NCBI RefSeq assembly: GCF_024124745.1 | Contig: NZ_JAMXRU010000008.1 | Span: 1-64,000 of the forward strand | Direction of reading: 5' to 3' | Source: Aeromicrobium sp. CnD17-E | GTDB lineage: Bacteria > Actinomycetota > Actinomycetes > Propionibacteriales > Nocardioidaceae | Length of the DNA stretch: 64,000 nt | Shown: one piece after another, positions 25,494-57,126 of the stretch | Layout of the letters: each line of letters begins with the position of its first letter | Position numbering within the stretch: the stretch's first letter is position 1 | Program-made: the position numbers and the translations under genes | The notes under the pieces: generated by a model | The model's input: only the letters and a program-made list of their open reading frames with translations | The model's database searches: none | Told to the model about the DNA's origin: nothing

Positions 25494-26235
25494 GGGGCCC
25501 GCCAGCGCCCCCGGGACCGCCCTGGGCGTGACGTGGGCGGCGGGGGCTGGTGGTGCGCTGGGGGCGGTGGCCGTGATCGTGCCGGTGCGCGGCCGCAGGG
25601 GGTCTCGTCCTGCTGGTGCGCTGCCGTAGGGGGTCTCGTCCTGGTGCTGCGCTGCCTCAGCTTGCGCTGGGGGCGGCTTCCGAGAGGGCCTCGACCGGGC
25701 GGCTGGCGGCGGCGCCGGGCTGGGGTCTCGGACTGTAGCCCGCGTCGGACGCAAGGATCTGCGTTCGTGCGTGGGACTCCAAGGTTTCTGCGTTTCCTAC
25801 CGGATCCCGTCACCAACGCAGAAGCGTTCGACCTCCCGCGCGTGGATGAAGAATCGTGGGTGCCCTTTGCGGTGGGGGGACGCGAGATTCTCCCTTCTCG
25901 TGGACCGTTCCACGCGAAGGAAGAATCCCTACCGCGCCCCGCCCGCCATCGGTGGCGCGAAAACGCAGAAACGAAGAATCGTGCCTCACCCACAGGCCCA
26001 AGCCAGGCCCCGAGACCCGGAACCAGCCCCAGGCCCGCTGCCGGTCGAGGCCCTCTCGGAGGCCAGACCCAGCGAAGGCCGAGGCAGCGCACCAGCAAGG
26101 TCACGACGACCGCAGGCAACGCAGCAGCAGGGCGAGACCCCCGGCGGCAGCGCACCAGCAACACCACGACCCCCGCACCACCCAGCCCAAGCCCACCCAC
26201 GCACCCGCCAGGAGGCGCCCCAGCCCCCACCGGCC
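25494..26235. repeat. noncoding region with long nested inverted repeats
   Basis: No gene is supported in this stretch between purF and the 26248 gene. The outer part (about 25578-25745 and 25990-26160) forms an imperfect inverted repeat; its best core is a perfect 20-bp pair at 25679-25698 and 26041-26060. The left arm has a tandem repeat of about 31 bp (25594-25655, built on AGGGGGTCTCGTCCTG). Inside are a 19-bp inverted repeat with two mismatches and a 4-nt loop (25886-25904/25909-25927) and a 9-bp pair TTCTGCGTT/AACGCAGAA (25786-25794/25815-25823). Base composition dips in the centre, unlike flanking genes. Confidence 0.75.
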
Positions 26236-38464: not shown

Positions 38465-39664
38465 TCAGGCGAGGTCGGAGAGCTCGACGGAGGGGTCGGC
38501 GAGGCGCTCGGGGTCGACCTCACGGCCCACGAGGGCGCGCAGATCGTCCTGGACGTCCCAGATGTTGACGTTCATCGCGGCGGACACGACGCCGTCGTGC
38601 AGCCAGAAGACGATGAACTCGCCCTCGCCGCTGCCGTCGTCTAGCTCGCCGCGCACGACCACGTCGTCGTCGCCGGAGCCGTGGCCGACGTACTCCATGC
38701 CGAGGTCGTACTGGTCGGTGAAGAAGTACGGCTCCCAGTCGTAGGCGACGTCCTGGCCGAGCAGCACCTGCGCGACGGCCTCGCCCTGGCGCACGGCGTC
38801 GTCCCAGTGCTCGACCCGCACGGCGTGGCCGCGACCCAGGTGCAGGGTGGCCGCGACGTCGCCGATGGCGTACACGTCGGGGTGGCTGGTGGCGAAGTGC
38901 TCGTCGGTGACGATGCCGTCGTCGACGAGCAGCCCAGCCTCCTGCGCGAGCTCGACGTTGGGCGTCGCACCCACGGCCAGCACGACGACGTCGGCCTCGA
39001 GCACCTCCCCGCCGCCGAGCTTCACCGTGCGCGCGGTCACCGCGTCGACCCGCTCACCCGACCGCAGGTTCACGCCGTGCGACGTGTGCAGCGACGCGAA
39101 GTAGCCGCCGATCCGCTCGCCCATGACCTTCTCCAGCGGCACGTCGTCGCGCAGCACGACCGTCGTCTCGAGGTCGTGGTGACGTGCCGCAGCCGCCACC
39201 TCGAGCCCGATCCAGCCGCCACCCACGACGACGACGGACGACGCATCGGCGAACGCCGCCGACAGCCGCTCCACGTCGGCCGCGTTCCGCAGGAAGAAGG
39301 CGTCGGCACCGCCCGCGATGGCGTCGGGGACGGCGGGCCGGGCGCCGGTCGCGATGACGGCCTTGTCGAACGGCACGACCTGGCCGTCCGCCAGGTGCAC
39401 CCGGTGACCCTCGACGTCGAGCCGCTCGACCTCGGTGCCCGTCACGAGCCGCACGTCGTGCTCGGCGTACCACTCCTGCGGCTGGACGACGGCGTCGTCG
39501 AGCGTGCCCTCGCCGAGCAGCACGTCCTTCGAGAGGGGCGGACGCTCGTACGGCAGGCGGTCCTCGTCGCCGATGATCGTCAGCCCGCCGTCGTGACCGT
39601 TCTCGCGCAGCGCCGCTGCAGCCTTCGCGGCCGCGAGACCGCCTCCGATGATGACGATGTCCAT
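38465..39664 (-). CDS. FAD-dependent NAD(P)H:ferredoxin reductase-like oxidoreductase
   Basis: 399 aa. FAD motif VIIGGGLAAAKAAAAL (4-19), the LPYERPPLSKDVLL block of rhodocoxin/putidaredoxin reductases, NAD motif VVVGGGWIGLEVA (about 144-156), and DVYAIGDVA. C-terminal domain (about 320-399) completes the family. It passes electrons to a ferredoxin for an unlinked P450 or dioxygenase; no partner is adjacent. The protein is a distant paralogue of the reductase at 1136-2344. Confidence 0.9.
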   Translation of the reverse strand: MDIVIIGGGLAAAKAAAALRENGHDGGLTIIGDEDRLPYERPPLSKDVLLGEGTLDDAVVQPQEWYAEHDVRLVTGTEVERLDVEGHRVHLADGQVVPFDKAVIATGARPAVPDAIAGGADAFFLRNAADVERLSAAFADASSVVVVGGGWIGLEVAAAARHHDLETTVVLRDDVPLEKVMGERIGGYFASLHTSHGVNLRSGERVDAVTARTVKLGGGEVLEADVVVLAVGATPNVELAQEAGLLVDDGIVTDEHFATSHPDVYAIGDVAATLHLGRGHAVRVEHWDDAVRQGEAVAQVLLGQDVAYDWEPYFFTDQYDLGMEYVGHGSGDDDVVVRGELDDGSGEGEFIVFWLHDGVVSAAMNVNIWDVQDDLRALVGREVDPERLADPSVELSDLA

Positions 39665-39714: not shown

Positions 39715-40173
39715 TCAGGAGCCCGTGCGGCTCAGCGACCCGAGCGTCTCACCACCACGGTCGAGGGCCACCAGGCGACCGTCCTCCACCCGGAACGAGG
39801 CGGCCCGGGCCAGCCACTCCCCCGGGACCGTCGAGCAGCCGACGAGCGACGTCACCTGGCTGCCCCTCAGCAGCACGCGGTCGCCGTCGAGCGACCAGCG
39901 CCGACCGCTGAAGGAGTTGCACCCGTCGGAGCCTGACACGCCGCCGTCGGGCCCGAGCTCAACCTCCACCGGCAGGCGCGAGCCCGAACGGCCCGCCGAC
40001 CACAGCCCCACGAGATCGGCCCGGGTGACGTCGCGTCCCGTCGTCGGGAGCGACGGCGACGCCGAGGGAGCCGGGTCCGACGCCCCTCCCTGGCACCCGC
40101 CCACGGCGAGCGCGGCGCCCATGACGACCAGGACCACCACGACCGGCGGACGTCTGGGCCCTCGTCGAGGCAC
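39715..40173 (-). CDS. META-domain lipoprotein
   Basis: 152 aa. Basic start, hydrophobic stretch and lipobox VGGC (about residue 25) mark a lipoprotein. The META/HslJ-like domain follows: LVGLWS, DGCNSFSGRRWSLDGDRV and the TSLVGC strand. META domains occur in heat-shock and envelope proteins; function here unknown. GTG 40173 is 5 bp after the stop of a second META gene. Confidence 0.78.
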   Translation of the reverse strand: MPRRGPRRPPVVVVLVVMGAALAVGGCQGGASDPAPSASPSLPTTGRDVTRADLVGLWSAGRSGSRLPVEVELGPDGGVSGSDGCNSFSGRRWSLDGDRVLLRGSQVTSLVGCSTVPGEWLARAASFRVEDGRLVALDRGGETLGSLSRTGS

Positions 40174-40178
40174 GACGG

Positions 40179-40508
40179 TCAGCCCCGCGCGGACGTGTCC
40201 GGGTCGGTGAGCAGCAGACCCAGCTCCGCGCCGTCGGGTCCCGTCGCGCGCAGCGTGCCGTCGTCCCAGCGGAACGAGACGGCCCGCCCCACCCAGGTGT
40301 CGACACCGTCGCAGGCCATGAGGGTCGAGACACGGGTGCCCGACGTGGTGACGACGTCGCCCTCGAGCGACCAGTGCTCGCCGCCGAACCGGTTGCACCC
40401 GTCGTGCCCGGCGAGGTCGCCGTTGTCGCGCAGCTCGACGAACGCCCGGTCCGGGCCGTTCTCGGGGAGCCAGCGGCCGACGACGTCGGACCGTGCGGGG
40501 GCGCTCAC
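40179..40508 (-). CDS. META-domain protein (cytoplasmic paralogue)
   Basis: 109 aa, one META-like domain: VVGRWLP, DNGDLAGHDGCNRFGGEHWSLEGD, and STLMACDGVDTWVGRAVSFRWDDG. The DGCN motif matches the adjacent lipoprotein, so the two arose by duplication, but this copy has no signal sequence. GTG start overlaps the stop of the repeat protein gene upstream (GTGA). Confidence 0.75.
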   Translation of the reverse strand: MSAPARSDVVGRWLPENGPDRAFVELRDNGDLAGHDGCNRFGGEHWSLEGDVVTTSGTRVSTLMACDGVDTWVGRAVSFRWDDGTLRATGPDGAELGLLLTDPDTSARG

Positions 40509-41335
40509 TCGCCGTACAGCTCGTTCGTGGGGGTCGACCCCGACGGACCGGACGACAGCACCCGCCGGCGGCCGCCGGGCAGACGCTGGGCGAGCGTGCC
40601 GAGCGGCTCGACGGCGCCGCTGAGCACCGACACCGCCTGGTTGAGGCTGGGGATCGCGCTGCCGAGGGCCTCGAGGCGCGGGACGACCGCGTCGATCGTC
40701 GACCCGAGCGCGACCAGCTGCTCCAGCGTCCCGCCCGGACGCAGCAGGTTCTCGAGGACGCCCTCCTCCTCCAGCAGCTGCTCCAGCAGACCACCGGGGC
40801 GCAGCACGTTCTCGAGCGTGCCGTCCTGCTCCAGGAGCCGGTCGAGCGGGCCACCGGGTGCCAGCATCCGCTCGATCGGGCCGTCGGGTGCGGTGAGGCG
40901 CTCCAAGGGGCCGTCGGGCGCGAGCAGCCGGTCGAGCGAGCCGCCCGGAGCCAGGAAGCGGTAGAGCGGGCCGTCCTCGGCCAGGGCGCGGTCGAGCGGA
41001 CCCCCGGCCTCCAGCAGTCGCACGAACGGGCCGTCCTCCGACGCCATCCGGTCGACGAGACCGTCGCGCTGCAACGCCTTGCCGACGGGCCGGTCCTCGG
41101 CCGTGATGTCGGCGACCAGGTTGCCGAGCGCGACGATGCCGCGGTCGTCGGCCAGCAGCCGACCCAGCTGCTCGAGCAGCCCGTCCTCGCCGATCAGCAC
41201 CGCGATCCTGGTCCCGTACCCGCCCTCGCGCAGGATCGGGCCGTCCGGCGACGCCAGCTGGCCGAGGGCCAGGGTCGTGCGGGTGGCCGAGATCGTCACG
41301 CGCAGCGGCAGGGTGGCGAGGCCGACGAGGTTCAT
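40505..41335 (-). CDS. protein of 13 tandem decapeptide repeats, unknown
   Basis: 276 aa. Residues 81-210 are 13 uninterrupted 10-residue repeats with consensus (D/G)GPLxRLLAP, e.g. [30 protein letters not shown]; degenerate copies in the same phase start at residue 31. The N-terminus ([29 protein letters not shown]) is mildly hydrophobic and amphipathic, like phasin-type or membrane-surface helices. The C-terminus (211-276) is non-repetitive. I do not recognise a named family. Leaderless: TACGCT (complement of 41342-41347), 6 nt, ATG. Heads an operon with the two META genes. Confidence 0.8.
40706..41095 (-). repeat. 13 x 30-bp coding tandem repeat
   Basis: The DNA behind the 13 decapeptides of the preceding protein. 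Copies differ at many positions, mostly synonymous or conservative, so the array is old and maintained at protein level rather than a recent slippage product. Confidence 0.8.
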
Positions 41336-41367
41336 GCCCGCAGCGTAGGACCGTGACAGCGACGATG

Positions 41368-42870
41368 TCACGCGCTGCGCACCAGACGCACCGCGCCGTC
41401 GCGCCTGGGGTCGGCGGCGGCCTCGAGGTGCAGCGCGCCCGTCGCGTCGCGCCGCAGCAGGGTCGCGGCCACGCCGCCGTAGTACATCGTCAGGTCGGCC
41501 GCCTCCTCGACCTTGACCACCTCGTCGGGCCGGCCGGCCCGGTGCACGTGCACCCGCGGGTGGTCGACAGCCTCCTGCAGGGGCAGTCCGCCGTTGACGA
41601 AGCCCGCCACGACCTGCGCGACGGCCGTCGAGATGCGGTCGGCCCCCGGCGACCCGATCGCCAGGGCCGCGCCGTCGCGGTGGTGGGCCACGGTCGGCGC
41701 CATGTTGGACAGCAGCCGGGTGCCCGCCGGCAGGCCGTGCAGCCCCCGCGGGTTCAGCTCCTGCTCGCCGAGACAGTTGTTCAGCCAGATACCGGTGCCG
41801 CGGGCCACCATCCCCGAGCCGTAGCCCGAGGACACGGTCACCGAGCACGCGCCGCCGTCGCCGTCGGTGGCCGACACGTGGGCCGTGGAGCCGGACGAGC
41901 GCACCGTGTCGTCGACCGACGCCAGGTAGGCGAGGGCGTCGGCGACGAGGTCGTCGCTGTGGTCGAGCACGTCGAGCCGGTGCCCGAGGACCGCCCGCTG
42001 CACCTCGACCAGGCGGTCGACGTCGGCGGTCGACCACCGTCCGTCCACCACGCCGCGTGGCACGCCGTCGAGCAGGCGCAGCATGGCCGCCACGCACACC
42101 CCGCCGATCGCCGGCGTCGGGTTGGTGCCGAGCGTCCAGTCGCCGAGCTCCACGCGCAACGCGGGCCGCACCACCGGCCGGTACGCCTCGAGGTCCTCGC
42201 GGGTCAGCAGACCGCCGCGCGCGACGACGTCGTCGCTGATGAGTCGTCCGAGCTCGCCGGCGTGCAGCGCCCTGGCGCCCTCCTCGGCGATCAGCTCGAG
42301 CGAGGCCGCGAGGTCGGCGACCACCACGAGCCCGCGCGTCACCGTGCCGTCGACGTCGTGCACGGCCGCCCGGCTCTGCTGGTCCCAGCCGTAGATGTCG
42401 TCGTGCACGTAGTCGAGGTAGTAGCGCGAGGCCGAGCCCAGCCGGAAGCCTCCCCGGGCCACGTCGACGGCCGGTGCCACGACCTCGCGCCACGGGACGC
42501 TCCCCCACCGGCGGTGCGTCTCCTCGAACGCCGCCACCGCGCCGTGGGTCGCGACCGAGCCGGCGCCGATCGTGACCGTGACCCCGCCGCCGTACTCGGT
42601 GGTCACGTCCCACGTGCCCGAGCCGCGCGCGGCCTCCGCTCCCCGACCGGGCATGTCCATCCAGCCGTCGACGGTGACCGGGCTCGACCCGTCCTGGGGC
42701 TGCACCGTCACGAAGCCGCCCGAGCTGAGCGAGACCAGGCCCACCTCGTTGACCATGGTCACCAGCGCGGCGGCGAGCGCCGCGTCGACGGCGTTGCCGC
42801 CCGCGCGAGCCACCAGCGCGCCGGCGTCGGCGGCGGCCTCGTTGGGTGCGGCGAGCGCGACGTCAGGCAT
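41368..42870 (-). CDS. gamma-glutamyltransferase family protein
   Basis: 500 aa. N-terminal [39 protein letters not shown], and the C-terminal [28 protein letters not shown] are GGT landmarks. Alignment to the TTHYSVVD nucleophile site gives THR329 in STAHVSATD, where self-cleavage would produce the small subunit. No signal peptide is present, unlike classical secreted GGT. Could act on glutathione-like, mycothiol or other gamma-glutamyl compounds. Leaderless: TAGCCT (complement of 42877-42882), 6 nt. Confidence 0.85.
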
Positions 42871-56799: not shown

Positions 56800-57126
56800 G
56801 TGCCGACCATGACCGACGCGCAGAGCTGGACGCTGATCATCGGGTTCCTGACCACGACCGTCGCCGTCCTCGGCCTCGTCATGACCTCCTTCCATCGCAC
56901 GCTGCAGTCGGGGCTGACGGCGGTGCGGCACGAGCTGCGCGGCGAGATCGGCACCGTCCGCGGCGAGATCGGCACCGTCCGCGGCGAGATCGGCACCGTC
57001 CGCGCCGAGATCGACGGCCTGCGCACCGAGATGCGCACCGAGTTCCGGCGCGTCGACCAGCGGCTCGACCACCTCGACCGCGACGTGCAGGCACTCACGC
57101 GCCACGTGTTCGACCGCCCGGAGTAG
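56800..57126 (+). CDS. small membrane-anchored coiled-coil protein
   Basis: 108 aa. One membrane helix (about 9-30) followed by a continuous coiled coil to the end, including three exact heptads GEIGTVR and then AEIDGLR, TEMRTEF. It looks like a bacterial analogue of membrane-anchored coiled-coil (DUF-type) proteins, function unknown. GTG 56800 or ATG 56809 could be the start; GACGAT 6 nt before the GTG fits the leaderless pattern. Confidence 0.7.
   Translation: MPTMTDAQSWTLIIGFLTTTVAVLGLVMTSFHRTLQSGLTAVRHELRGEIGTVRGEIGTVRGEIGTVRAEIDGLRTEMRTEFRRVDQRLDHLDRDVQALTRHVFDRPE
56941..57003 (+). repeat. 3 x 21-bp exact tandem repeat inside coiled-coil gene
   Basis: The 21-bp unit starting GGCGAGATCGGCACC is repeated three times without a single change, coding three heptads. 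The identity implies recent expansion by slippage; copy number may vary between strains. Confidence 0.85.

Follow-up and report, generated by a model that had tools for sequence, protein, structure and literature searches.

What is a protein built of tandem ten-residue repeats, and what could it be doing in the cell? This question is raised by one gene in the window, by which we mean the whole stretch of 64,000 nucleotides that was analysed. The gene occupies positions 41335-40505 of the minus strand and codes for 276 amino acids, with an ATG at 41335 and a stop codon at 40507-40505. It is made up of the following parts:

41246..41335, minus strand: N-terminal segment (residues 1-30), hydrophobic/amphipathic and helix-like from computed hydropathy and moment, conserved in alignments A1 and A4; no confident structure.
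41096..41245, minus strand: weak decads in register (residues 31-80), seen as rows of ten.
40706..41095, minus strand: 13 gap-free decads (residues 81-210), seen as rows of ten, with the family decad consensus and short helices in the AlphaFold2 models.
40577..40729, minus strand: C-terminal long helix region (residues 203-253), conserved, helical in both AlphaFold2 models at pLDDT <50.
40562..40579, minus strand: C-terminal basic motif PGGRRR (residues 253-258), with P253, G254, R256 and R257 invariant in 25 homologues.

The first-pass annotation had reported thirteen gap-free decads with weaker in-register copies from residue 31, and this description was borne out. The strong decads keep a single register through residues 81-210, and the weak ones fill residues 31-80 (rows beginning, for example, at 31 and 51). 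Comparing residues 31-220 with themselves at lag 10 gave a mean BLOSUM62 score of 1.17 and 36% identity; in 1000 shuffles the score did not rise above -0.10 at lags of 3 to 60. At the DNA level the decads of residues 91-210 share a mean identity of 60% (largest value 77%), so we regard the array as an old protein-level repeat kept by selection on the protein, and not as a young DNA satellite.

The high GC content gives many long open frames in this region, and TRF detects a 30/60-base period at the gene; these are the two points in favour of a spurious frame arising from a 30-base repeat in GC-rich DNA. That reading is refuted, and we leave it practically no probability. Ka/Ks against relatives was 0.047, 0.055, 0.11, 0.21 and 0.30 in five pairwise comparisons (thus 0.05-0.30), with changes concentrated at third positions; start and promoter are conserved, and the mycobacterial family has homologues at 34-38% identity. 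The repeat gene is under selection at the protein level. Its product contains no Cys and no Trp and has a net charge of -14. It shows no evident export signal and no clear membrane-spanning stretch (largest 19-residue hydropathy 1.17).

Other repeats occur elsewhere in the window. At positions 25543-26193 direct repeats of 21-32 nt, many of them based on GGCAGCGCACCAGCA, are clustered and form two inverted halves, with arms of 21-82 nt that are 71-84% complementary and lie 342-592 nt apart. At 56935-57040 a tandem 21-base repeat is translated into RGEIGTV heptads, in a short frame with a hydrophobic N-terminal stretch.

How strictly has the ten-residue unit been kept along different lineages? 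The consensus of 675 family decads reads [G/D/E]-G-x-L-[D/E]-[R/Q/K]-L-L-A-[E/P]. The earlier wording of the unit, (D/G)GPLxRLLAP, thus stands as a decad repeat and is too strict as a motif, Pro-3 being found in just 28% of these decads. In the same set Gly-2 is conserved at 99%, and the information content is 2.89, 2.71 and 2.41 bits at positions 4, 7 and 8 against 2.60 bits at D5 and 2.84 bits at R6. Accordingly, D5 and R6, which are predicted to be exposed, are about as conserved as the Leu positions 4, 7 and 8. In ligand-binding solenoids the surface positions diversify; exposed positions as conserved as the core would rather suggest a uniform surface than a tuned binding groove.

The number of decads was evaluated from the spacing between the two conserved anchors. 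This spacing was divisible by 10 in 65 of 67 distinct homologues and one short in the other two; in the subset below 82% identity it was a multiple of 10 in 40 of 42. Its extremes are 40 and 190 residues, or 4 and 19 decads, and a single genus spans 9 to 15 decads. A 20-residue super-period, hinted at by DG and GG turns that alternate weakly, an effect inflated by related sequences, was rejected, as odd and even decad counts both occur and the decad itself is therefore the unit. For these counts 82 entries were condensed to 71 distinct genes, four of which (L096, L126, L132 and L133) lacked an anchor. For L012, L119, L130, L131, L134 and L092, six of the 67, the decad number is a lower bound, decad-like rows continuing beyond the C-side anchor. 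Called genes replaced truncated readings for L084, L090, L091 and L092. The set excludes L135 (from G203, lacking the family ends and judged spurious), L032 (the L096 gene with a wrong start) and one of L031 and L095, which are the same gene of G070.

Besides tandem decads in one register with a near-invariant Gly-2, the window protein shows the two family ends, the N-terminal segment and the C-terminal helix with a PGxRRR-type tail. Both ends are present in weaker form in the mycobacterial and Gordonia-like members. It is no more than a hunch of ours that the C-terminal segment may be similar to a family of mycobacteria which bears the misnomer 'ribulose bisphosphate carboxylase large subunit'.

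The closest named relatives are a Propionibacteriales MAG (97% identity) and three Aeromicrobium genomes (61-81%). The repeat gene was found in 24 of the 49 genomes of the genus, some of which are incomplete, in 28 of the 118 relatives searched, and in 65 of 294 genomes of the family, distributed over 8 of 26 genera (one of the 65, G203, looks spurious). Across the phylum 15 of 396 genomes gave matches. Two of these belong to the genus and twelve to a single other family; in the last, G459, only 48 C-terminal residues match. The protein reached from the G459 segment has repeats of another kind and is matched in 4 of 21 of its relatives; we do not claim homology for it. The other carrier family is taken as mycobacterial for reasons of neighbourhood given below. 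There, profile A4, which includes eight of its sequences, detected the gene in 180 of 251 genomes and 25 of the 31 genera searched (three of the matches listed are weak, E 3e-4 to 2e-8). The repeat grammar is unusually strict and its family widespread, yet the open-licence papers searched describe no function for it.

Plasmids carry further sequences of this kind. A hypothetical protein of Tsukamurella tyrosinosolvens (WP_068739617.1) is a full-length, plasmid-borne family member, 45% identical to homologue L091 over 96% of the latter; it differs by an extra Pro/Ala-rich tail and has no assigned function. A plasmid protein of Sulfitobacter (L234:1628-4765) follows a similar ten-step grammar, DGLVGGLLGE. 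However, this protein and its counterpart in Alloyangia (L237:652-2898), both of Roseobacteraceae, are Asp/Gly-rich, 1046 and 749 aa long, carry short repeats of their own and lack Arg-6, and the family ends were not seen in them; such acidic repeats are probably convergent with the decads. Among phage records the window protein had no match at E up to 1e-3.

In five of six mycobacterial loci (genus g38) the repeat homologue is divergent from genes of a response regulator and a histidine kinase, an arrangement seen in none of the other 19 loci laid out. The response regulator of G412 matches PDB chains named PhoP at 2e-141, which we take to be those of M. tuberculosis, and a HIT-domain gene lies near the mycobacterial homologues. 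This phoP-like and HIT-domain neighbourhood is the reason why the second carrier family is taken as mycobacterial. By synteny with phoP, and not by comparison with the Rv0756c sequence itself, its member is identified as Rv0756c; Rv1682, considered as the counterpart, was dropped given the phoP neighbourhood. Profile A1, which contains no mycobacterial sequence, matches the G412 homologue at 6e-43. The mycobacterial Rv0756c-type genes share with the window gene the order of N-segment, decad array and C-segment, and differ from it in having 9 or 12 decads between the anchors and other neighbours; they are 35-38% identical to the window protein. The window gene does not adjoin phoPR; this adjacency is not family-wide and was not used as a family criterion. 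Three loci, two of them mycobacterial and one Gordonia-like (L084, L088 and L090), have a gene close to the repeat gene that looks PAS-like by eye.

Some published data touch on Rv0756c. In a table of PMC4038636, as we read it, Rv0756c and Rv0757 (phoP) share one PhoP ChIP-seq peak, and Rv0756c is hardly altered (-1.24) in a phoP mutant. The insertion site 'Rv0756c:phoP' of IS6110 is listed in PMC8912993. PMC9637126 describes an outbreak isolate with an IS6110 copy inside Rv0756c, which suggests that the gene is dispensable in that isolate.

How might the gene be expressed and controlled? Upstream of the ATG we distinguished three elements:

41342..41347, minus strand: -10 element TACGCT, six bases ahead of the ATG; the start is predicted to be leaderless.
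41366..41370, minus strand: -35 element TGACA, sharing bases with the stop codon of the preceding gene.
41354..41370, no strand assigned: operator-like palindrome TGACATCG-N-CGATGTCA, with one mismatch in the window copy.

Among 19 distinct upstream regions (18 from the genus and one from G062), TAnnnT stands at -12/-13 in 17, and GACA starts at -33 to -35 in all 19. This placement puts the expected transcription start on the ATG or next to it, and the repeat gene is predicted to be leaderless. By eye, a leaderless-type TAnnnT also precedes, at a similar distance, mycobacterial and several Nocardioides-type homologues (L084-L089, L102, L103, L112 and L113). A start of this type seems to have been kept across two families, though the remaining upstream sequence is unlike.

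In 10 of the 19 regions there is also a TGTCA half-site, so that a copy of the palindrome, of varying perfection, covers the -35 element. Scanning 17 chosen genomes of the genus with at most one mismatch gave 36 sites in 14 genomes, and none in the reversed control. By their coordinates eight of the 36 belong to the repeat gene; 18 of the other 28 were read. Seven of these 18 lie 11 bases before a gene of a GMC oxidoreductase or an aldehyde dehydrogenase-GMC pair, and one lies between genes of an acyl-CoA ligase and a fatty-acyl-reductase-like SDR. Two precede the OYE gene of G029 and G012 (loci L225 and L228), genomes without the repeat gene, where the OYE gene and the one after it are, by eye, those found downstream of the repeat gene in carriers; here the repeat gene seems to have been deleted and its control site kept. 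The remaining eight have no clear meaning, four of them being inside called genes. In NCBIfam the GMC enzyme is nearest to cholesterol oxidase (578 of 850 bits) and the ligase to long-chain-fatty-acid-CoA ligase (440 of 476), both below cut-off, while the aldehyde dehydrogenase (succinic semialdehyde dehydrogenase) and the SDR (PRK07201) score over it. These positions hint that the palindrome marks a candidate lipid or redox regulon in the genus. The lipid-enzyme sites were seen in this genus only, and the palindrome was not seen in the mycobacterial upstream regions examined. The window's own genome has one other site, with no called gene starting there, and the carriers G019 and G028 have no site at one mismatch.

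On the other side of the gene the window contains:

40179..40508, minus strand: META-domain protein (PF03724, 28.7 bits, cut-off 24), with a GTGA overlap with the repeat-gene stop.
39715..40140, minus strand: second META-like protein (PF03724, 22.9 bits, below the cut-off of 24).
38465..39664, minus strand: FAD ferredoxin-reductase-like enzyme (Pfam), a relative of which also lies downstream of the repeat gene in G024 (L100).

Downstream of the gene in the 97% relative, one META gene and the FAD reductase are called. The operon with two META proteins proposed at first therefore holds in the window clade, with the second META just below cut-off, and does not extend to the other relatives read. 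Downstream of the gene in those stand an OYE-type oxidoreductase, a FAD enzyme or others in Aeromicrobium, a methyltransferase at six Nocardioides-type loci, and otherwise nothing constant; no neighbour gene is conserved across the 25 loci laid out. With the downstream gene varying in this way, META is no guide to function.

The predicted structure was examined with AlphaFold2 for the full length and for residues 81-256, with five sequences in each run. Mean pLDDT was 40 and 52, respectively. Both models, at this low confidence, give one short helix per decad, of 5-9 residues and mostly six. In the shorter model ten-residue blocks 2 to 9 reach a mean pLDDT of 57-69 and the C-terminal part stays <50, forming one long helix there and two in the full-length model. 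Foldseek returned a single match in the PDB, at E 7.9. Of the original proposal of a turn and a short helix per repeat that could form a solenoid, the short helix with its Gly turn is retained at low AlphaFold2 confidence, and the solenoid is a candidate fold only, neither model being confident. The fold can be predicted, weakly, at the level of secondary structure only.

What function would suit such an array? We tentatively prefer, while giving it somewhat less than an even chance, that the protein is a modular array of amphipathic helices acting as a coat or scaffold on a membrane or neutral-lipid surface. Each decad is predicted to form a short amphipathic helix with L4, L7 and L8 on one face and D5 and R6 on the other, closed by the Gly turn. 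The array would then be a single layer of short helices with one greasy and one charged side, and together with both ends and the basic tail it might lie on the inner membrane or on a neutral-lipid droplet. The number of units would set the extent of the layer and not its specificity. This reading draws on the exact modularity, the conservation of D5 and R6 at positions predicted to be exposed, the one short helix per decad in both models, the absence of Cys and Trp, the hydrophobic moments of the array helices (0.41-0.86) and the lack of a clear transmembrane segment, and also on the presence of the palindrome at promoters of lipid and redox enzymes in sister genomes.

Co-occurrence with neutral-lipid synthesis did not add to it. 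A WS/DGAT neutral-lipid synthase is present in 49 of 49 genomes of the genus and so does not discriminate; in the family it exceeds the cut-off in 290 of 294 genomes, against 65 of 294 with the repeat gene (a count limited to five candidates per genome at most, and kept out of the statistics). At least two WS/DGAT copies were found in 24 of 24 carriers versus 8 of 25 non-carriers (Fisher 2e-7, raw). On a guaA tree of 46 genomes, however, the repeat gene changes 7 times and the WS/DGAT state 3 times, and among four independent pairs a mean of 0.7 agree and 3.3 show no difference. Once shared descent is controlled, the lipid-droplet link by co-occurrence gains no support, four pairs being too few for a test. 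For the tree analysis, WS/DGAT matches at the level of fragments were deducted in five genomes; three genomes of the genus had no guaA row.

The same regularity could belong to a soluble protein, a solenoid with one helix per repeat and a closed hydrophobic core that serves as a scaffold for partner proteins without touching lipid. We consider this only somewhat less probable than the lipid reading. Regular helix-turn units and indels of whole units would suit it, the charged D5 and R6 columns could make salt-bridge ladders between repeats, and the C-terminus has weak coiled-coil-like matches. Against it, the predicted surface positions are uniform and not diversified, the free length of the array within one genus (9 to 15 decads) is ill-suited to a specific groove, and the 25-locus layout offers no conserved gene as a candidate partner. 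The uniform charged positions are shared with a further reading, to which the conserved basic C-terminal motif also lends itself: a self-assembling filament, or a structural protein of envelope or nucleoid, whose basic tail would sit on DNA or anionic membrane while the repeats polymerise. This is rather unlikely, as the basic tail is short, the net charge is -14 and no DNA-binding domain was found.

The first-pass annotation had also mentioned polyester granules. Granule coat proteins in general look amphipathic, small and modular, and so does this one, which would speak for a phasin on polyhydroxyalkanoate granules. However, no phasin model matched, and PhaC_N is missing from the window genome (G000), and among the 49 genomes of the genus it occurs only in one MAG, which is 8% contaminated (the PhaC_N model may miss some classes of PHA synthase). 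The granule option was therefore given up, its probability being very slight.

Returning to the helix array on a lipid surface, one may extend it to a whole class: proteins with one helix per ten residues coating neutral-lipid droplets or the inner membrane in some Nocardioidaceae and across the mycobacterial family, where Rv0756c, beside phoP, would be the best-placed member. This broader proposal is speculative and, in our opinion, unlikely. To our knowledge, few coat proteins are known in actinobacterial lipid storage. If the array does lie on lipid, it would be one more of them. A ten-residue helical unit with freely changing copy number would be a simple natural building block.

It remains to compare the decads with systems already described. 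That they match no known repeat family, as first claimed, was supported by searches of Pfam, NCBIfam and PDB sequences. In Pfam and NCBIfam the repeat family has no match over a curated cut-off; both gave no phasin family, and Pfam gave no DNA-binding domain. In PHROGs the window protein and L086 have no match, and L091 matches phrog_22415 (function unknown) at E 2e-6. PDB sequences gave nothing under E 0.001; the best PDB profile matches begin at E 0.0019 and fall mostly on the C-terminal helix, several of them presumably coiled coils, going by their names, and one tail-fibre protein (E 0.049) falls on the decads. Three Priestia records called 'pentapeptide' were matched; H11, the one opened, matches on the strand opposite the annotated gene and is spurious. 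In the open-licence literature we found no description of a decapeptide-repeat family or of Rv0756c function, and no paper joining Rv0756c with lipid droplets. The decapeptide-repeat family, an actinobacterial one, is undescribed, and those named members that we came across are deposited as hypothetical proteins.

A possible analogy is offered by MLDS, the major lipid-droplet protein of Rhodococcus, which is likewise actinobacterial and, according to PMC5504291, combines a part that targets droplets with a C-terminal part that binds DNA. Compared by that description, MLDS differs in its four PAKKA motifs and conserved apolipoprotein motif, the window protein having no PAKKA. The apolipoprotein 11/22-mer, phasin, pentapeptide, TPR and HEAT repeats are also short tandem structural or amphipathic repeats. 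They are unlike the decads in period, which is 10 here, and have no Pfam match in the window protein. The pentapeptide unit is A(D/N)LXX, and in the window protein, with its period of 10, the lag-5 score is -1.54. The TPR, HEAT, ARM and other alpha-solenoid classes likewise gave no Pfam match, and the best Foldseek value, E 7.9, comes from a low-confidence model. Taken by their sequence grammar, the decads would represent a novel variant of repeat among helical-repeat proteins in the broad sense.
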